A stretch of 41,698 bases of DNA from Desulforamulus aquiferis (GTDB taxonomy: Bacteria > Bacillota > Desulfotomaculia > Desulfotomaculales > Desulfotomaculaceae). Numbering within the stretch: position 1 is the stretch's first letter; every line of letters starts with the position of its first letter. The DNA is taken from positions 5,233 through 46,930 of the forward strand of contig AWVY01000035.1 in the NCBI GenBank assembly GCA_004143605.1. Direction: 5' to 3'. Shown here piece after piece: positions 16,080-26,059 of this stretch. The position numbers were made by a program, and so were the translations under genes. A model generated the notes under the pieces. It was not told the origin of the DNA and ran no database searches. It saw only the letters and a program-made list of their open reading frames with translations.

Positions 16080-18728
16080 ATGCCACGAATAAAAAAACAG
16101 GAAGAACAGCAATTATGTGCCTACTTCACACCTTCAGGCTTTGTCATTGAGGAGGACCTATTGGAGCCTCAGGATCCTCTTAAAACCTGGATGGAGCAGT
16201 TCAAAGCAGACAAATACAGGGCCTTGTTTCATCTTGGTTTTCTAGAAAGGGCAAAGTGGTTTTCGCCTTCCCTTGAATACCTCCATCACGTTACAGAGTT
16301 GCTCATTATAAAAATCAGCCAACAGGCGGATCTCGAAATCAGCCGGGAGCGAGTTCAGGTTGAATTGCGAAATGACGAAGTGGAAAGGCTTAAAGACGAA
16401 ATTCCCTTTGCTATTGGTATGGAATATATTGACACGGACTGGATTCGAAGGCTCAGTGAGGAACTGTTGACTGTTTTCCAGACGGAAATTAGGGACTATG
16501 ATGGTACCGTTAACAGGTACTTTGCGGATTATAACTCCAATATCAATGTTGCAGGCAGGGTGTTTTTCACCTAGTTGAAAATAAAGAAGAACAATTTCCT
16601 TTTGCCTTTATGGCCACTTACTCAACTAAGACGGTCAAGAGTAAGCGAGCAGTACACACCCCTTTGAAAAATGCATTAGAGGAATTTAGAGGGAGGATAA
16701 GAAGCTGCTTAACCTCATTTCAACAGTCATCAAGGCTGCGGAGAAGAGCAGCTTTATCTCTGAATTGCTGGAAAGTGGGGAATTGTTCTCGCCCCTGAAG
16801 CTCAATAGAGAGGAAGCATACATTGTTTTAAAGGAGATTGCCCTTTACGAGGAAGCCGGCATTATGTGCAGGGTACCGGATTGGTGGCGCAAAGGCAGCA
16901 ATTCCATCGGGCTTTCGATTAAAGTGGGAGAAAAGGAACCTCCAGGGTGGGGTTGGATGCTATTATGGATTTTTCACCTACTCTTAAATTAGGAGATGAG
17001 TCACTTACCGAAAATGAACTGAGGAAGTTTCTGACTATGGCAGAAGGACTCATACAATACAAAGGCAGATGGGTTGAGGTCAGTAAAGCTAAGTTGGAAG
17101 CCCTACTTCAGGCTTTTGATAAGGTAAAGGACCTTGCCGAAGAGGGGGCATTATCCTTGGGGAGGCCATGAGGCTTGAGTTGAATGGGAATGAGCTGCTG
17201 AATATTCCTGCAGATGAGTTAGAGGTATCGGTTACCAATGGGCAATGGCTCAAAACCATGAAGGAGAATCTAACTCAGCCAGCAGCATTGCCGGAGGTAA
17301 CTACCGTACCTTCTTTCCATGCAACACTTAGGCCCTATCAAAGAAACGGATATCAGTGGCTTCATCAAATCTCTGCGATGAGATTTGGGGCTTGTCTTGC
17401 AGATGATATGGGGCTGGGTAAGACCGTTCAGATGATTGCCTATTTGGAATATGCCAGAATTAATTACGGTGGACATGCACTTCTTATCTTGCCGGCCTCT
17501 CTGATTGGCAACTGGCAGAAGGAAATTGATAAATTCGCACCGGAAATGCCTTACCAGATACTGCATAAGAGCGAGCTAAAAGCAAAAGAAGCAATTCAGA
17601 TCAAAGAAGATTGTTTCCTGTATATTACCACCTATGGCATGGCAGTCAGGCTGGAAGAACTTAAGAACAGGAAGTGGGATTACCTGATTTTGGATGAGGC
17701 ACAAGCCATTAAGAATCCCGGTACTAAACAAACAAAAGCTATCAAACAGATTCCGGCTAAAATGAGAATTGCTATGACTGGAACTCCCATTGAAAATCGA
17801 TTGGGTGATTTGTGGTCCTTGTTTGATTTTTTGAATCAAGACTTTTGGGAACTGCCAAGGAATTTACGAATTTTGCGAAAGAGCTTGGAGATCATTCGGG
17901 CGGGTATGCCAGGCTGCGTAAAATGATACAGCCCTTTATCCTGAGAAGGCTGAAAACAGATAAGAACATCATATCAGATCTACCTGATAAATTGGAAATG
18001 AACTCCTACACCACCTTGTCCAATAAACAGGTTGTTCTTTATAAGCAACTTATTAAAAAGATTGAGGAGAAGCTGAGAGATTCGGAAGGAATTGAACGAA
18101 AAGGCTTATTTTATCCAGTATTATGAAGTTGAAACAGATTTGTAATCATCCGGATCAATATGTAGGCCGAGAGGAATTTAAGCCTGAGCAAAGTGGCAAG
18201 TTTGAGCAACTTAGAGAAATTTGTGAAACGATTCGGGAGAAACGGGAACGAGTACTTATCTTTACTCAATTCAGAGAAATGACGGAGCCAATTTCCGATT
18301 TTCTAGCAGGAATATTCGGTAAAGAGGGTTTTGTACTTCATGGCGGCACCCCGGTGAAAAGACGAAATGAGATTGTAGCACAGTTCAATAGAGAACAATA
18401 TATTCCCTATATGGTGCTGTCTCTAAAGGCAGGCGGGGTCGGTCTGAATCTGACGGGAGCCAATCATGTAATTCATTTTGATAGATGGTGGAATCCGGCT
18501 GTGGAAAATCAGGCCACCGACCGTGCGTTTCGTATTGGGCAGACGAAGAATGTCCTGGTGCATAAGTTTGTTACGAAAGGTACCATAGAAGAGAAAATAG
18601 ATGCGATTTTGGAAGAGAAGCAAAAACTGTCTGGGGACATTCTGAGTACAAATGGAGAGCAGTGGATTACGGAGTACAATAATGAAGAACTGATGGAGCT
18701 ATTTGCATTGGGCGGTGACAAAGCATGA
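16080..18728 (+). CDS. SNF2-family DEAD/H helicase with N-terminal SNF2-associated domain, six frameshifts
   Basis: Predicted double-stranded DNA translocase of about 883 aa. The N-terminal third is the bacterial SNF2-associated region; the motor has motif I DDMGLGKT, motif II DEAQ, motif III MTGTPIENR, and C-terminal motifs LSLKAGGVGLNLTGANHVI and ATDRAFRIGQ. Single-base losses near 16571, 16693, 16945, 17164, 17847 and 18109 split it, yet all motifs survive when rejoined. ATG 16080 follows GGAGG. It overlaps the SWIM gene by ATGA, so the pair is translated together, as is usual for bacterial SNF2/SWIM couples. Roles proposed for such pairs include repair, transcription recycling and defence; nothing here decides which. 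Confidence 0.88.
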
Positions 18729-19440
18729 GCTATTACGGATATCCAAAGTATGTATCAGTTGAGGAGAAAAAGGCAAAAGCGGAAAAGGCACTGAAAAAAT
18801 TGAAAAAGAATAACCCAGGCTTGGAACCAGTCATCATTGAGGGAAGGACACTGGCCAGGAGCTGGTGGGGAAAGGCCTGGAACCTAAATCTGGAAAGCTA
18901 TGCAGATTACAGTAACCGGATCGCTAGAGGTAAAAGCTATGTCCGTAGCAATGCAGTGTTGGATTTAAAGCTATCGAAAGGAAGAGTAACTGCCATGGTA
19001 CAGGGGAGCAGGGCAAAGCCCTATGATACCGAGATTTGGATTGATACCCTAAACAGTACGAAATGGCGTGAAATCTCTGAATTATGCAATCACAGAATTG
19101 ATACCCTGGAACAGCTGATAGAAGGAAATTTCCCAAGGAAATGGAGATTTTGTTCACGGATAAAAGGTATTCTATGTTTCCATCTCCGAAGGAAATCCAT
19201 TTTAACTGTAGCTGTCCTGATTACGCAATTATGTGCAAACATGTGGCGGCAGTATTGTATGGTATCGGTGCCAGATTGGATCAGAATCCGCTGCTGTTTT
19301 TCGAACTCAGAGATATCGATGGAAGAGAACTGATCCGGAAATCCATGGAGCAGAAGCTTGATAGCATGCTGAAAAATGCAGGCAGGAAAAGCAAACGGGA
19401 AATAGCGGCAGAGGATATTCCGAACATCTTTGGATTGTAG
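18725..19440 (+). CDS. SWIM zinc-finger protein, one frameshift near 19135
   Basis: About 239 aa. A basic N-terminus (KKAKAEKALKKLKKNNPG) is followed by GRTLARSWWGKAWN and the SWIM motif FNCSCPDYAIMCKH, whose Cys-x-Cys and Cys-x-His bind zinc; SWIM domains bind DNA or partner proteins. The two halves join when one C is restored in TTTCCCAAGG (about 19135), giving EGNFPKEMEILF. Start ATG overlaps the helicase stop. The partner SNF2 gene and this protein very probably form one complex. No methylase, nuclease or other defence gene accompanies them in this interval. Confidence 0.87.
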
Positions 19441-19472
19441 AGCACCTTAAAATTGACCTGATCCATATTAGG

Positions 19473-19500
19473 TTGACATACATAGCTCCAATGTTATATA
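19473..19500 (+). promoter_or_regulatory. Promoter overlapping the left arm of a long palindrome
   Basis: TTGACA (19473-19478) and TATATA (19495-19500) with a 16-bp spacer. The -10 lies inside the left arm of the 25-bp inverted repeat, so a protein bound to the palindrome would block RNA polymerase. Confidence 0.6.
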
Positions 19501-19538
19501 TTTATAACGTGCAGTTATAAATATATAACATTGGAGCT
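19484..19538. repeat. 25-bp perfect inverted repeat with 5-nt centre
   Basis: Arms 19484-19508 and 19514-19538 are exact reverse complements over 25 bp around GTGCA. The left arm holds the -10 and the right arm holds the GGAG ribosome site of the downstream gene. It is either a very strong operator for the XRE regulator encoded downstream or, on readthrough from the SWIM gene, a hairpin hiding the ribosome site. Confidence 0.9.
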
Positions 19539-19545
19539 GAGAACG

Positions 19546-19902
19546 GTGTATTTGAACAACAAGTTAGGGTATTTAGGTTTTTTAGGCTTAATCGGATTAA
19601 TGGGATTGAAAGGTAATTTCTACTTTTTCGGATATTTCGGCTTCTTAGTCTACTTTAGATACTTTAAAGTAATCCCGGATGAGCTTTTTAAAGAGAATGT
19701 TCGAAAAGCGGCTTCACCAAGTTTTTTTCTTGGTATCACGATAAGTGCGCTTATAAGCGTTTATATTGCTTTAATGGATAATCCGAATTTTCAGGATGTA
19801 GCAAGTAGTTTGGCCATAGGTCTGGCAATGAACTTTGCCCTCCCGATTTTTGTGTTTACAGGGATTTTGCTATATTTGGAAACTCGAGAAGGCTGGCGGT
19901 AA
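19546..19902 (+). CDS. Small membrane protein (DUF3796-like)
   Basis: About 119 aa with three or four hydrophobic segments: [49 protein letters not shown] and [15 protein letters not shown]. The repeated GFLG/GLMG glycine pattern and following [12 protein letters not shown] are typical of DUF3796, a family often next to YozG-type regulators. GTG 19546 is chosen because GGAG lies nine bases before it; TTG 19531 would place the start inside the palindrome. Function unknown. The regulator gene begins five bases after its stop. Confidence 0.75.
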
Positions 19903-19907
19903 TTGCT

Positions 19908-20107
19908 ATGATTTTAAAGACAAAAATGAAAGAGTTTCGAGCAAAGTTAGGGATGAAACAAGAAGAGTTGGCCGAATTAGTCGGTGTAAGACGGGAGACA
20001 ATAGGTCATTTAGAAAACGGAAGTATAATCCATCTTTAAAGCTAGCCTTTGAGATAGCCAAAGTATTTGATACAACAGTGGAGGAACTATTTGAATTTTG
20101 TGATTAG
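19908..20107 (+). CDS. XRE-family regulator (YozG-like), one frameshift
   Basis: About 66 aa, a single HTH_3 domain: [31 protein letters not shown], then [19 protein letters not shown]. One A is missing near 20026 (GGAAAGTATAATCC read as GGAAGTATAATCC); restoring it gives [11 protein letters not shown]. It is a paralogue of the regulator at 9099-9296, here downstream of its membrane partner instead of upstream. Probable ligand: the 25-bp palindrome in front of the operon. Confidence 0.83.
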
Positions 20108-20134
20108 GGTGCCAGGCACTTAACTTATTAACTT
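20106..20134. repeat. 29-bp direct repeat, right copy
   Basis: Same 29 bp and same orientation as 14872-14900, placed directly at the stop of the XRE gene. The next 13 bp after it differ from the left copy. Confidence 0.85.
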
Positions 20135-20140
20135 ATAATT

Positions 20141-20176
20141 AAAAGCAGGACAGCTGAAGGGTTGTTCTGCTTTTAT
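20141..20176 (+). terminator. Terminator after the membrane protein/XRE pair
   Basis: AAAAGCAGGACA pairs with TGTTCTGCTTTT with one G-U, loop of about ten bases, followed by ATTGT. The stem is strong; the terminal T tract is part of the stem. Confidence 0.75.
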
Positions 20177-20330
20177 TGTCACAAAACAAGTGGATTTTTG
20201 TCATATTTTAAAGTTAATATTTAAAAATGTATAAATCTGGTCAGGATAAGCCTAAAGGATAAGTTGTTTTAAGCACAAGGTTAAAAACCTAGAAAAACAC
20301 GCCTTTACAAAAAAGGATTTTCTTACCTAT

Positions 20331-20337
20331 TGTCGAA
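20331..20337 (+). promoter_or_regulatory. Spo0A-box-like TGTCGAA before thpR
   Basis: Perfect TGTCGAA 27 bp upstream of the thpR start, after AAAAGGATTTTC. The 7-mer is expected several times by chance in a window of this size, so this is a candidate only. A second copy is upstream of dnaG. Confidence 0.3.
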
Positions 20338-20363
20338 TGATAAACAAGCAGAGGGGGCGAAAA

Positions 20364-20944
20364 ATGGAACTCCTTCGTTTATTTGTAGCCATTGATCTGC
20401 CAAGGGAGTTAAAAAAGAATATTTCACAGGTACAAAGACAATTAGCCCAAAAAAGTAAGGGTATTAAGTGGGTAGAAGATGTGAACTTACATCTTACACT
20501 TAAATTTCTTGGAGAGGTACCGACTGAGAGAAGAAACGACATCCACCTGGCAATAAAGGATTCAGTTCAGAAGATGAATTCCTTTAAACTGCAATTAAAG
20601 GGACTAGGGACCTTTGGTTCTCCGGGAAAACCTAATGTTATATGGATAGGCATAGAAGGCCAAAGGGAAAAATTGCTTAACTTGCATAATAGGCTAGATG
20701 CTAAGTTAAGCCATTTGGGTTTGGCAGGGAAAAAAGAAGGTATTCTCCCCACCTTACCTTGGGAAGGATCAAGGAAGGTGCTGTATTAAATGATATTCAG
20801 CGAGAAATTGATAGTCTAGGACAGAAAAATTTTGGTGAGTTGTCGGTAGCATCCATTGAATTATTCCAAAGTAAACTCACTCAGGCAGGACCAATTTATA
20901 AAATACTTGAAAGTACAGCATTAGAATGCCAGCCTCGGGTCTAA
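20364..20944 (+). CDS. thpR: RNA 2',3'-cyclic phosphodiesterase (LigT/ThpR), one frameshift
   Basis: 2H-phosphoesterase that hydrolyses 2',3'-cyclic phosphate ends of RNA. Both HxT motifs are present: HLTLKFLGEVP near residue 42 and SPHLTLGRIKE, the latter only after correcting a one-base loss near 20715-20730 (GREKRRY precedes it in the corrected frame). About 194 aa after correction, the usual size. ATG follows GAGGGGG. It starts FVAIDLPRELKKNI, typical for the family. Confidence 0.88.
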
Positions 20945-21043
20945 AGTTAGAATGGCAGGCATAATTTTTATATATCGGAGTATTTAGGGATATTAGCCAT
21001 CTTTCTGGCATTTCCCTTCTTAATATATAAGGAGGTAGAAACC

Positions 21044-21652
21044 ATGTTAGTAATTGGTTTGAATGGTAGTCCAAATAATGATGGCAACACGTTTTTTTTA
21101 CTCAAAGAGGCTCTAGGGGCAGCCAGTGAGCTGGGCGCGGAAACAAAGCTGATAAATGTAGCTCCCGCTGTGAAAACTCTTAATGAATTGTTTTGCGATG
21201 CTTGCACCACTCCCTGTGCGGGGGTTTGTTACCAAGGAACAAAGGTAGAGGAACTATTAAACCAACTTAAAGAGGCTGACGGAATAATTATGGCAAGCCC
21301 TGTTTACTTTGGAACTGTGGCCTCTCCCTTAAAGATTCTTTGGGATAAAACCAGAGCAATACGTAAGGAGAAGGCTTTGGTAGATGTTGTGGGTGCTGCA
21401 GTGGCGGTGGGTGGTTCCCGTTTCGGCGGGCAGGAAACTACCATCAGGGCAATGCAGGATATGATGTTGGTGCAAGGCATGACCATTGTAGGTGATGGTT
21501 CCTTTTTAGATGATGCAGGTCACCAGGGAGCCAGTGCCCAGAAGCCTTCAGATAAGGACCAGATAGGAATAAAGCGCAGCCAAATATTAGGCCGACGGGT
21601 GGCTGAAGTTGCCCAGGGGACAATGGCTTTAAGGGAAAGGAAAAAGGGGTAG
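21044..21652 (+). CDS. NADPH-dependent FMN reductase / iron-sulfur flavoprotein family
   Basis: Intact 202-aa flavodoxin-fold protein. The FMN phosphate loop is GLNGSPNNDGNT (5-16). A cysteine cluster CDACTTPCAGVC at about 50-61 resembles the compact Fe-S site of archaeal/clostridial iron-sulfur flavoproteins, and ASPVYFGTVASPLKILWD is the second flavin-binding loop. It probably transfers electrons in the cytoplasm; partner unknown. The ATG follows AAGGAGG. It ends six bases before dgt, implying cotranscription. Confidence 0.85.
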   Translation: MLVIGLNGSPNNDGNTFFLLKEALGAASELGAETKLINVAPAVKTLNELFCDACTTPCAGVCYQGTKVEELLNQLKEADGIIMASPVYFGTVASPLKILWDKTRAIRKEKALVDVVGAAVAVGGSRFGGQETTIRAMQDMMLVQGMTIVGDGSFLDDAGHQGASAQKPSDKDQIGIKRSQILGRRVAEVAQGTMALRERKKG

Positions 21653-21658
21653 TTCCCC

Positions 21659-22658
21659 ATGGAAATCAGGCTGCAAACTGAGGAACTTGAGAGGCAGCTG
21701 CTGTCCCCCTATGCCTGCCGCAGCGTTGATAGCAAGGGGAGGGAGAAATTTGAGGAACAATGCCCCATTCGCACGTTGTTTCAGAGGGATAGGGATAGGA
21801 TTATCCACTCAAAGGCCTTTCGTAGGTTGAAGCACAAAACCCAGGTGTTTATTATCCCTGAGGGAGATCATTATAGGACGAGATTAACCCATACCCTTGA
21901 AGTAGCTCAGATTGCCAAAACTTGTGCCAAGGCCCTTCGCCTTAATGAAGATTTAACCGAGGCAATTGCCATGGGTCATGATCTAGGGCATACACCTTTG
22001 GTCACGCAGGGGAGCAGTCCTAGATAAGGTTTATCCACCGGGCTTTAAGCACAATGAACAAAGTCTTCGTATCATAGACAAACTGGAAGGTCACAGTGGT
22101 TTAAACCTAACCTGGGAGGTGCGGGACGGGGTATTAAATCATACCGGTCCAAATAAGCCAGCCACCTTAGAAGGCCAAGTGGTCAAAATTGCAGATCGCA
22201 TTGCCTATATTAATCATGACATAGATGATGCATTGCGTGCCGGTGTCTTGGACAGGGAGGATTTGCCTGGGAGTTGCTTGGAAATACTTGGACATCGTCA
22301 TAGTCAGAGAATTAATACTATGGTATTAGATTTAATTAAATCCAGCCAGGGCAAGTCTGAAATTTGCATGAGTACACAGGTTAAGCAGGCCATGGACAGA
22401 TTAAGGAGTTTTATGTTTAACAATGTGTATATAGGTTCTGAGGCTAAAACTGAAGAAAGTAAGGCTAGGCACCTGGTGGAAAATCTATATTTCTACTTTT
22501 TAAATAATCCAAATAAAATTCCTGGAGATGTATTGAGCAGGGCTGAGCAGGAAGGCATCCCCAGGGTTATTGTAGATTATATTGCCGGAATGACTGATCG
22601 CTTTGCAGTTGCCCAATATAAAAATTTATATATACCGCACGGTTTTCCCTTAGGTTAA
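21659..22658 (+). CDS. dgt: dGTPase-like deoxynucleotide triphosphohydrolase, two frameshifts
   Basis: HD-domain enzyme that cleaves dNTPs to nucleoside and triphosphate. [25 protein letters not shown] and [16 protein letters not shown] carry the metal-binding His/Asp set; the last is readable only after restoring one T near 22003 (CCTTTTGG) and one G near 22018 (CAGGTCC). [19 protein letters not shown] and the C-terminal helical part follow. Corrected length is about 334 aa. Placement immediately upstream of dnaG-sigA is common in Peptococcaceae. Substrate preference (dGTP or other) cannot be read from sequence. Confidence 0.9.
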
Positions 22659-22866
22659 TATTATTTTGATATATTCATTGAAAATATTGGCAATAATAAA
22701 GTTGTTGCCCTTGAAAAATTGTCGAAGTAATGCAGGATATTTTCAAGGGATAGCGAATAGTCTTTAAACTGTAGCCTCAATTACGTGGTGATTCCATTAG
22801 CAGGAAAAAATCCCTTTATGGAGAAACTTTACTATAATAACTGTTTTTTTTCAAGGGTGGTTTAAC
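22659..22866. promoter_or_regulatory. Promoter region of dnaG-sigA with inverted repeat and 0A-like box
   Basis: 208 bp without a gene. CCCTTGAAAA (about 22708-22717) and TTTTCAAGGG (about 22741-22750) form a 10-bp inverted repeat that encloses TGTCGAA at 22720-22726, a perfect Spo0A-box heptamer. GTCTTTAAACTG and TTTACTATAATAAC further right could be promoter elements. Sporulation control of the dnaG-sigA operon is known in Bacillus; here it is inference. Confidence 0.4.
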
Positions 22867-24689
22867 ATGGGGTCATATATCCCGGATGAGGTAGTTGAGG
22901 ACATAAGACAAAGAACCGACATTGTGGAAGTAGTATCCCAGTATTTGACGCTGGAGCGGCGTGGCAAAAACCTGTTAGCCCTTTGCCCCTTTCACCAAGA
23001 GAAAACGCCTTCCTTCAATGTTAATCCAGAGAAGCAAATATTTCATTGCTTTGGCTGTGGAGTTGGAGGAAACGTTTTTAAATTTCTTATGATGGTGGAA
23101 GGTGTTTCTTTCCCTGACGCAGTAAGAACACTGGGGGCTAAGGCGGGGATTACAGTCCCAGAACGATATTCCCCGGCTGATACAGCACAAAAAAGTAAAA
23201 AAGAAAGGGCTTGGGAAATCTACGGACTTAGCAGGGAGTATTACCGCTTGCTGTTATCAAAGGAAGTTGGACAAAGGGCCATGCAGTATTTGGTAAAGCG
23301 TAATTTGACCAAGACTTCCCAAGAGACCTTTCAATTGGGATATGCTCCAGCAGGTTGGGATGCTTTAACCAAATATCTTCTCTCAAAGGGCGTTTCCAAG
23401 GATGAATTGATAAAGTTGGGATTAGCCCAGAGCAAAGAGAATGGCTGCTATGATCGGTTTAGGGACAGGGTTATATTTCCCATTTGGGATTCCCAGGTCG
23501 AGTAGTCGGATTTGGTGGCAGAACAATGGGCGATGACCCACCTAAATACCTTAACTCTCCCGAGGGTGAGTATTTTAATAAAGGCAAGCTTTTATACGCC
23601 TTGCACATTTCACGAAGGGGGATTCGAGAGCAGGGTTTCGCAGTACTTTTGGAAGGTTATATTGATGTGGTTTCTGTTTACCAGCGTGGGGTCACAAATG
23701 CGGTTGCCTCCCTGGGGACAGCCTTTACTAGGGAACAGGGCAGACTTTTAATGAGCTACACCCATAATGTGGTTATTGCATATGATGGAGATGCGGCGGG
23801 TGTTAAAGCAGCCATTAGGGCTGCTGAAATTCTTCAAGAACTAGGGTGTAAGGCTACCATAGCGACTATTCCTGACGGTATGGATCCTGATGATTTTATT
23901 CAGGCCCAGGGACTAGAAGGATGGTCAAATATGATTGCTAGGGCATTACCTCTAGTTCAAATTAAACTGTTACAGGCTGTAAAACAATACGGAATTGGTA
24001 ACAGTGCATCTAAACAAAGGATACTTCAGGAGGTGCTACCCAATTTGGCTGCGGTGGCCAGTTCAATAGAATTAGAAGAAGCAGTTCAACATACGGCCAC
24101 AGTTTTACAGGTCAATTGGGAAACTGTTCTTGATGAAATAAAAAGCTATAGGATAAATAACAGGAAAAAATCCCAATTTAGGGATATTTCTTCAAAAGAT
24201 AGCCATAATATAGCAAGTAATTCCAATAACCAGCATTCTAAAAGGCCTGCCGATGCCAGGGCTACTGCAGAGGCAAACCTTATTAGACTGGCCTTGGAGG
24301 ATAAAAGTTGGCTCAACCGAATTAATCAGGAGCTTGGAAGAGAATTTTTTCAAGACCCGGATTACCAGTTAATATACCGAACAATTTTGGATTTAGAAGC
24401 AGATGGAGTTTCAGCAACAATATATACAAGGCTTGGGGAAAAACAGCAAAGAATATATAGTGAGCTTTTGGTTCAAGATATTCCAGGACAAAACCTGGAA
24501 CAGGTTTTTGCTGACTTAGTCAAAGCTATTAAAAAAACTGGAAACAAGGCAAGACTGGCAAATCTATTAGAACAATTGGCTACGGCCGAACGAGCAGGAG
24601 ATGCCGAAAAAGTTTTTATGCTTCGTCGGGAAATAAACTTATCAATTTCGAAATCCGAGGGGCCGAAAGGGGAGTGGCAACGTGAGTGA
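22867..24689 (+). CDS. dnaG: DNA primase, one frameshift near 23497
   Basis: Makes RNA primers for replication. The N-terminal CHC2 zinc finger has C40-H43 ([11 protein letters not shown]) and C61-C64 (HCFGCG). The RNA polymerase domain contains [19 protein letters not shown], the TOPRIM acidic motifs LLEGYIDVV and AYDGDAAG, and a C-terminal DnaB-helicase interaction domain. One G is missing at about 23497 (CAGGGTCGA read as CAGGTCGA). Corrected length about 608 aa, normal. ATG lies in a weak context after AAGGGTGG. It overlaps sigA by 8 bp. Confidence 0.97.
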
Positions 24690-25780
24690 GGAAATAAAAG
24701 TTGAGCAAGTGAAAGAACTCGTAGAGAAGGGCAAAAAACGAGGCGTCCTTACATATAGCGAAATAATGGATGGTTTGCAGGGAACAGAACTCACGCCTGA
24801 GCAAATTGATGACATTTATGAAAAATTAGCAGGTATGGGTATTGAGGTTGTCCCTGAGGTAACCGATCTTGAGCCACTGGAAGTAGATGAGACTACAGAA
24901 GCTACCCCCGAAGAGGTTGAAGTTGAGTTAGATTTGTCTATTCCTGAAGGTATCGGCATAGATGATCCCGTACGAATGTATCTAAAGGAAATCGGGCGCG
25001 TTCCTTTGCTTTCACCTGAGGAAGAAGTAGAGCTAGCCAAACGAATGGAATTAGGGGATGAAGAGGCTAAGCGTCGCTTAGCAGAGGCCAACCTCCGTTT
25101 GGTGGTTAGCATTGCAAAGCGCTATGTTGGCCGGGGCATGCTGTTTCTTGACTTAATCCAGGAGGGCAATTTAGGACTTATCAAGGCTGTAGAAAAGTTT
25201 GATTTCCGTAAAGGCTTTAAATTTAGCACCTATGCAACCTGGTGGATTCGACAGGCTATAACCAGGGCCATTGCTGATCAGGCCCGTACAATACGTATTC
25301 CGGTACACATGGTTGAAACCATAAACAAACTTATACGAGTTTCCCGCCAGCTTCTTCAGGAATTGGGTCGTGAGCCAAGCCCTGAAGAAATTGCCAAGGA
25401 AATGGAAATTTCCGGTGAAAAGGTCCGGGAAATTATGAAAATAGCCCAGGAACCAGTATCCTTGGAAACACCTATTGGTGAGGAGGAAGACTCTCACCTG
25501 GGAGATTTTATTGAGGATGCCGATGCCAGGCACCTGCGGAAGAGGCTTCCTTTACTCTATTGAGAGAGCAGCTTGATGAGGTTCTGAAGACCTTAACAGA
25601 CCGTGAACAAAAGGTGCTTCGCTTAAGATTTGGCTTGGATGATGGAAGGGCACGCACCCTGGAAGAAGTGGGTCAAAATTTGGCGTAACCAGGGAACGCA
25701 TTAGACAGATCGAAGCAAAGACCCTGCGCAAGCTGCGTCATCCCAGTCGGAGTAAAAAGCTTAAGGATTACCTTGATTAA
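24682..25780 (+). CDS. sigA: RNA polymerase primary sigma factor, two frameshifts
   Basis: Housekeeping sigma-70. Region 1.1-like acidic N-terminus, region 1.2 [21 protein letters not shown], region 2 with [30 protein letters not shown] and [17 protein letters not shown], region 3 [13 protein letters not shown], region 4 [15 protein letters not shown] and [18 protein letters not shown]. Losses near 25528 (AGGGCACC read as AGGCACC) and near 25676 (CAAAAATTTGG shortened) cut region 3/4 off; the corrected protein is 366 aa and ends [11 protein letters not shown] start, overlapping dnaG by 8 bp. It is the classic end of the macromolecular-synthesis operon. Confidence 0.97.
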
Positions 25781-25902
25781 GCTTGATATTGAATAGAAGC
25801 TGTCCAATCTTTATAAAAAATGCAAAAACTAATAAATTTAAATGCATTTGCATGTTGACCTGGTAAACCTGTTTTAGTATAATAACTCTTGCATGGTGAT
25901 GC

Positions 25903-25977
25903 TCCTCGATAGCTCAATGGTAGAGCAACCGGCTGTTAACCGGTAGGTTGTAGGTTCGAATCCTACTCGGGGAGCCA
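25903..25977 (+). tRNA. tRNA-Asn (GTT)
   Basis: Full cloverleaf: acceptor TCCTCGA/TCGGGGA, D-arm AGCTCAATGGTAGAGC, anticodon loop CTGTTAA with GTT, T-arm GTAGG-TTCGAAT-CCTAC, encoded CCA. First of a four-tRNA cluster after sigA. Confidence 0.97.
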
Positions 25978-25985
25978 ATATTATC

Positions 25986-26059
25986 GGGCCTATAGCTCAA
26001 TGGTAGAGCATCCGGCTCATAACCGGCTGGTTCCAGGTTCGAATCCTGTGGGCCCACCA
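25986..26059 (+). tRNA. tRNA-Met (CAT), one T-arm base missing
   Basis: Acceptor GGGCCTA/TGGGCCC, anticodon loop CTCATAA with CAT, encoded CCA. The T-stem reads CCAGG-TTCGAAT-CCTG then enters the acceptor, one base short; CCTGG is expected. It is an elongator-type molecule, since the first pair is G-C. The missing G fits the general base-loss error in this window. Confidence 0.93.

Follow-up and report, generated by a model that had tools for sequence, protein, structure and literature searches.

A perfect palindrome over the promoter of a DUF3796-XRE operon in Desulforamulus aquiferis contains a conserved pair of putative operator sites

What is the role of a perfect palindrome that runs from the promoter of a small operon into its ribosome site? 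The question is raised by a locus of Desulforamulus aquiferis that lies within a stretch of 41,698 nt, referred to here as the window. A repeat search found an inverted repeat with two 25-bp arms (19484-19508 and 19514-19538) that are 100% complementary and enclose a 5-nt loop, GTGCA. With loops of up to 30 allowed, no inverted repeat in the 41.7-kb window is longer, while the longest ones in 20 first-order Markov shuffles of the window reached only 9-12 bp. The palindrome is present once in the organism's own assembly (69 contigs, 72% complete). The features of the locus are listed below in the order in which they occur.

18725-19440, plus strand: SWIM zinc-finger gene (PF04434), frame-broken, upstream neighbour of the operon
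19473-19478, plus strand: -35 element TTGACA, from the promoter scan
19484-19538, no strand assigned: perfect palindrome with 25-bp arms and a 5-nt loop, from the repeat search and shuffles
19484-19490, plus strand: left-arm outer extension AGCTCCA, situated in the promoter spacer, able to pair with the Shine-Dalgarno (SD) region, found in the window only
19493-19508, no strand assigned: putative operator site O1, GTTATATATTTATAAC, overlapping the -10 element, kept in DUF3796-XRE loci
19497-19502, plus strand: -10 element TATATT, from the promoter scan, inside the left operator site
19514-19529, no strand assigned: putative operator site O2, GTTATAAATATATAAC, kept in DUF3796-XRE loci
19532-19538, plus strand: right-arm outer extension TGGAGCT, which holds the SD sequence GGAG (19533-19536)
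19546-19902, plus strand: gene for a DUF3796 (PF12676) small membrane protein of 118 aa with a GTG start, Pfam E = 8.9e-18
19908-20107, plus strand: gene for a CylR2-type XRE/HTH_3 regulator, 66 aa when the frame break is ignored, PF01381 E = 3.2e-18

The initial annotation had described much of this anatomy from the letters alone, and the mismatch-free arms, the -10 element within the left arm, the GGAG within the right arm and the GTG start are all borne out. In four close homologues of about 70% identity, an ATG stands where the window has its GTG at 19546 (MY[ML]NNKL). The promoter, TTGACA-18-TATATT, begins at 19473 and matches the consensus at 11 of 12 positions, with a -35/-10 spacer of 18 nt as against 17 in most relatives. 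Each 25-bp arm holds a 16-bp near-palindrome, GTTATA-N4-TATAAC, and O2 lies downstream of the transcription start predicted near 19509, 21 bp from O1 when measured from centre to centre. The long palindrome is two operator-like sites of standard size, placed tail to tail, with flanks of 2+7 bp; by itself, the conserved operator yields near-palindromic arms of only 16-18 bp. The remark that the arms are much longer than usual XRE operators is thus correct as to their 25-bp length, but what they contain is two ordinary-sized 16-bp sites rather than one exceptional operator.

The operon behind the palindrome is of a little-studied kind. The DUF3796 protein is predicted, with low confidence (pLDDT 57), to be all-helical, and the solved structures closest to the XRE protein are a PbsX-family regulator (9k3w) and CylR2 (1utx), the latter matched over residues 6-64 with E = 9e-11. 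The XRE frame is broken near 20021, where an alignment to the homologue at locus L004 shows a one-base gap in an A run; the frames of the XRE homologues at close orthologous loci are intact. Frames are also split around 16600-26000 (SNF2, SWIM, LigT, dgt and possibly rpoD), and dnaG has lost one homopolymer base near 23498, as XRE has at 20021. The split neighbouring frames suggest an assembly rich in homopolymer errors. Since dnaG and other genes of the window are interrupted in a similar way, the break in XRE is probably a one-base assembly error, although it could be that the repressor has been lost in this genome.

Conservation of the palindrome was followed across 38 DUF3796 loci, comprising the window, the loci of close homologues and genes collected by profile search; XRE lies directly downstream of DUF3796 in 37 of them. 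Two 16-bp dyad-like sites, GTKATATATTTATAAC-N5-GTTATAAATATATMAC, are present tail to tail in all 37 of the other loci, some of them degenerate, with a centre-to-centre distance of about 21 bp across the family and a gap of exactly 5 bp in 34/38. In the close relatives L004, L005 and L007, a core identical to that of the window, ATGTTATATATTTATAAC followed after 4 or 5 nt by GTTATAAATATATAACAT, sits between the -35 element and the ribosome site. The O1 core is identical in four of four close orthologous operons, where it follows TTGACA or TTGAAT, and O2 is identical in three of them and degenerate in the fourth, L006. Throughout the family the left site contains the -10 element, and 26/38 loci have a TTGACA-like -35 element, matching at least 5 of 6 positions, 16-18 nt upstream of it, compared with 1.9% at control positions. 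As judged from these predicted promoters, the site pair covers the -10 element and the putative transcription start across the family.

An apparent extra half site or third site was seen near the pair, upstream of DUF3796, at seven loci (L016, L018, L035, L036, L037, L041 and L044), and in some loci with an additional operator-like site the ribosome site is 20 or more nt away. Locus L010 carries a separate, loopless perfect palindrome of 20 bp (ATTGATTTTGTATATTATCT/AGATAATATACAAAATCAAT) in the stretch that separates its DUF3796 operon from a divergent MerR-type gene.

The signature is also highly specific. When 496 distinct genomes from the class and phylum were scanned with the bare pattern GTTATANNNNTATAACN{3,6}GTTATANNNNTATAAC, only G000, G026, G046 and G482 matched, the match in the window included, and each of the three others directly precedes a DUF3796+XRE operon; the reversed control pattern gave no match in the 496 genomes. 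Paired-site scores ranged from 23 to 32 of 32 in the 38 loci, whereas shuffled sequence averaged 19.8 and never exceeded 25. This scoring is partly circular, since the consensus was drawn from some of the scored loci; the bare-pattern scan is the independent part of the evidence. The weakest loci, few in number and with scores of 23-25, overlap shuffled sequence. Anatomy, conservation and restriction to DUF3796-XRE operons are all direct observations.

The two arms also vary together. Pairing between them stands at 82.6% and drops to 77.9% once arms are exchanged at random among loci (none of 2000 shuffles reached the observed value), a covariation that is expected from XRE dimers and from RNA stems alike. 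It arises mainly at position 3 (GTT/GTG), which fits one protein reading both sites. In favour of an operator over an RNA stem, a perfect cross-stem exists in only 7/38 loci, and in L009 the second site is in the opposite orientation, so that the stem is broken while the two sites remain. Among 37 loci, the XRE recognition helix (RRETIxHLE) has His where the operator reads GTTATA and Asn, Arg or Tyr where it reads GTGATA, an association (Fisher p = 1.6e-5, uncorrected for phylogeny) that fails as an independent-pairs test, with only 2 pairs on well-supported branches. The His versus Asn/Arg/Tyr position is a candidate specificity residue of the helix.

The core of the palindrome is very probably the autoregulatory promoter-operator of the DUF3796-XRE operon. 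We infer that the XRE protein, as a CylR2-like homodimer, would bind the dyad sites O1 and O2, which lie tail to tail and two helical turns apart; with O1 over the -10 element and O2 over the transcript start, binding would shut the operon's own promoter. As has been proposed for CylR1/CylR2, the DUF3796 membrane protein may then restrain the repressor or set it free. The 7 extra bp that perfect the 25-bp palindrome are a lineage-specific change. A DNA operator had been part of the initial proposal, which took conservation upstream of orthologous operons as one criterion; for the operator core this conservation is found, and the core is kept over the promoter of orthologous operons across the phylum, in strong support of the claim. 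A wider XRE regulon in the genome was considered and rejected: there are no other good operator sites, and two matches with 2 mismatches are no more than the reversed control gives, so that no site stands above control level.

The closest known parallel is the cytolysin operon of Enterococcus faecalis, in which the repressor CylR2 sits over a promoter and induction requires CylR1, a protein predicted to have three membrane helices (PMC3709268). The window likewise combines the gene of a small membrane protein with that of a 66-aa XRE regulator. The regulator is CylR2-like in being a single HTH_3 domain of about 66 aa with similarity to 1utx, while the membrane protein is likened to CylR1 by gene arrangement and predicted helices, Pfam naming it only as DUF3796. 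Unlike the cytolysin locus, the window has no divergent toxin or lantibiotic operon, its neighbours being the SWIM gene and LigT, and its putative operator covers no promoter but the operon's own. Autoregulated two-site operators of XRE proteins, such as restriction-modification controller proteins and regulators of the ImmR/SinR type, combine dyad sites, a small HTH dimer and overlap with the promoter. The window shares with them the dyad sites overlapping the promoter, and its family differs from them in the GTKATATATTTATAAC sequence, in the near-fixed tail-to-tail pair with its 5-bp gap, and in the DUF3796 partner. The dimers of CylR2, SinR and ImmR are themselves related (PMC8960796). The DUF3796-XRE element is real and conserved but ordinary in kind, very probably a paired operator through which a little-studied CylR-like operon regulates itself.

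What sets the window apart is the outer extension, AGCTCCA/TGGAGCT, which spans the ribosome site and occurs in the window only among the 38 loci; in relatives the ribosome site lies just outside the palindrome. Beyond the 16-mers the stem continues for 9 bp in the window and for at most 6 bp elsewhere, and none of 1406 cross-locus pairings reaches 9 bp. It is unlikely that the extension arose as a chance match or through an error of assembly. Its presence at only 1/38 loci and the indel errors of the assembly (split dnaG, XRE, LigT and others) speak for such an origin, but a permutation gives p = 2.2e-4 for one locus, about 0.8% over 38 loci, and the errors in XRE and dnaG are lost homopolymer bases, which would break a perfect 25-bp stem rather than create one. 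As the right flank, ATTGG- recurs in relatives (L010 and L035), and the right side therefore looks ancestral and the left side derived. Because the extension mirrors the ribosome site, template switching across the palindrome may have created it, the SD side serving as template for the promoter spacer. Template switching at near-palindromes is a described mechanism (PMC8794818), and a derived left side is its expected product.

The extension also bears on the second half of the initial proposal, a double lock in which the operator acts on the DNA and, in transcripts read through from the SWIM gene, an RNA hairpin hides the ribosome site. Transcripts from the operon's own promoter would start in the loop and escape. 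Because the predicted start near 19509 falls in the loop, the own-promoter transcript would hold the right arm only, and it shows no notable structure when folded. In the read-through RNA, by contrast, folding reaches -40.3 kcal/mol (z = -8.3), and the unpaired probability of the SD is 0.00 compared with 0.54 from the own start, as computed in silico. When the left flank is shuffled, the unpaired probability of the SD is 0.44 and none of 60 shuffles reaches the observed value, and the terminator scan found no intrinsic terminator between the SWIM gene and 19473. A parallel exists in the Bacillus subtilis sigG leader, where a hairpin of more than 20 bp hides the ribosome site of a GTG start with its downstream arm and forms only in read-through transcripts, not in own-promoter ones (PMC5942855). 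The window shares this layout, including the GTG start, and in silico the hiding of the SD in read-through only (0.00 vs 0.54), although in the window conservation is confined to the hairpin core, a putative DNA operator, and does not extend to the segment over the SD. The double lock as a whole is an unlikely reading. The outer 7 bp are missing in the four closest relatives and at all other loci, the SWIM gene that would supply read-through is absent from eight other genomes of the genus, and mismatches of the G-U and A-C types number 17 to 12, with no clear preference for G-U. A lock common to the family is rejected by flank shuffling (mean rank 0.55), for the family as a whole shows no tendency of the upstream flank to hide the SD, and the conservation of the RNA lock in orthologues accordingly fails, the SD lying outside the palindrome in relatives. 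Of the earlier claim, occlusion of the SD in the window's own read-through RNA stands as physically possible by computation, and its conservation falls. It is a long shot that a template switch extended the conserved repressor operator by 7 bp into a working translational lock against read-through in this lineage.

Two further readings do not reach even that level. It is very improbable that the palindrome serves mainly to terminate SWIM transcripts or to form their RNA end: a strong hairpin does lie about 40 bp past the SWIM stop codon, but no U run follows the stem, its tail being GAGAACGG, the palindrome is absent from the output of the terminator scan, and it is conserved with the downstream operon while the upstream neighbours vary. 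An intrinsic terminator made of a G+C-rich stem and a T run was rejected for lack of the T run. Long perfect inverted repeats are typical of MITE/REP-like elements, and the palindrome is such a repeat. A mobile element inserted here by chance has, all the same, almost no likelihood, since there is a single copy in the genome assembly and the orthologous operons compared have the core in the same position; copy number and position refute it for the core. Rfam 15 gave no match above the gathering score, only sub-threshold, miRNA-like matches to the bare hairpin, and a search for a phage or plasmid origin found no match in phages, plasmids or IMG/VR. The autoregulatory operator thus accounts for the core, with the extension as an addition peculiar to the window.

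How the operon came to this genome can be approached from its distribution. A single-sequence search did not find the DUF3796 gene in eight other genomes of the genus, profile matches are marginal in three of these eight, and a tree places the window's protein among sequences of Clostridiaceae and Natronincolaceae; together, absence or marginality in the genus and this placement suggest that the gene (19546-19902) was acquired horizontally. A DUF3796 gene adjoining an HTH gene is also mentioned for a Tn6189-like element of C. difficile (PMC11983580). The DUF3796-XRE operons, although scattered through Firmicutes, are almost unmentioned in the literature searched, where a single bacterial mention turned up. 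For this family, the shared and highly specific promoter-operator signature names the DNA that the XRE protein should bind, with its own operon as the expected main target, and so opens the family to direct tests. The window's extension is, more speculatively, a possible case of an operator palindrome perfected by template switching. If the extension did create a working lock, it would illustrate how, in evolution, an operator in DNA could gain an RNA-level function in one step.
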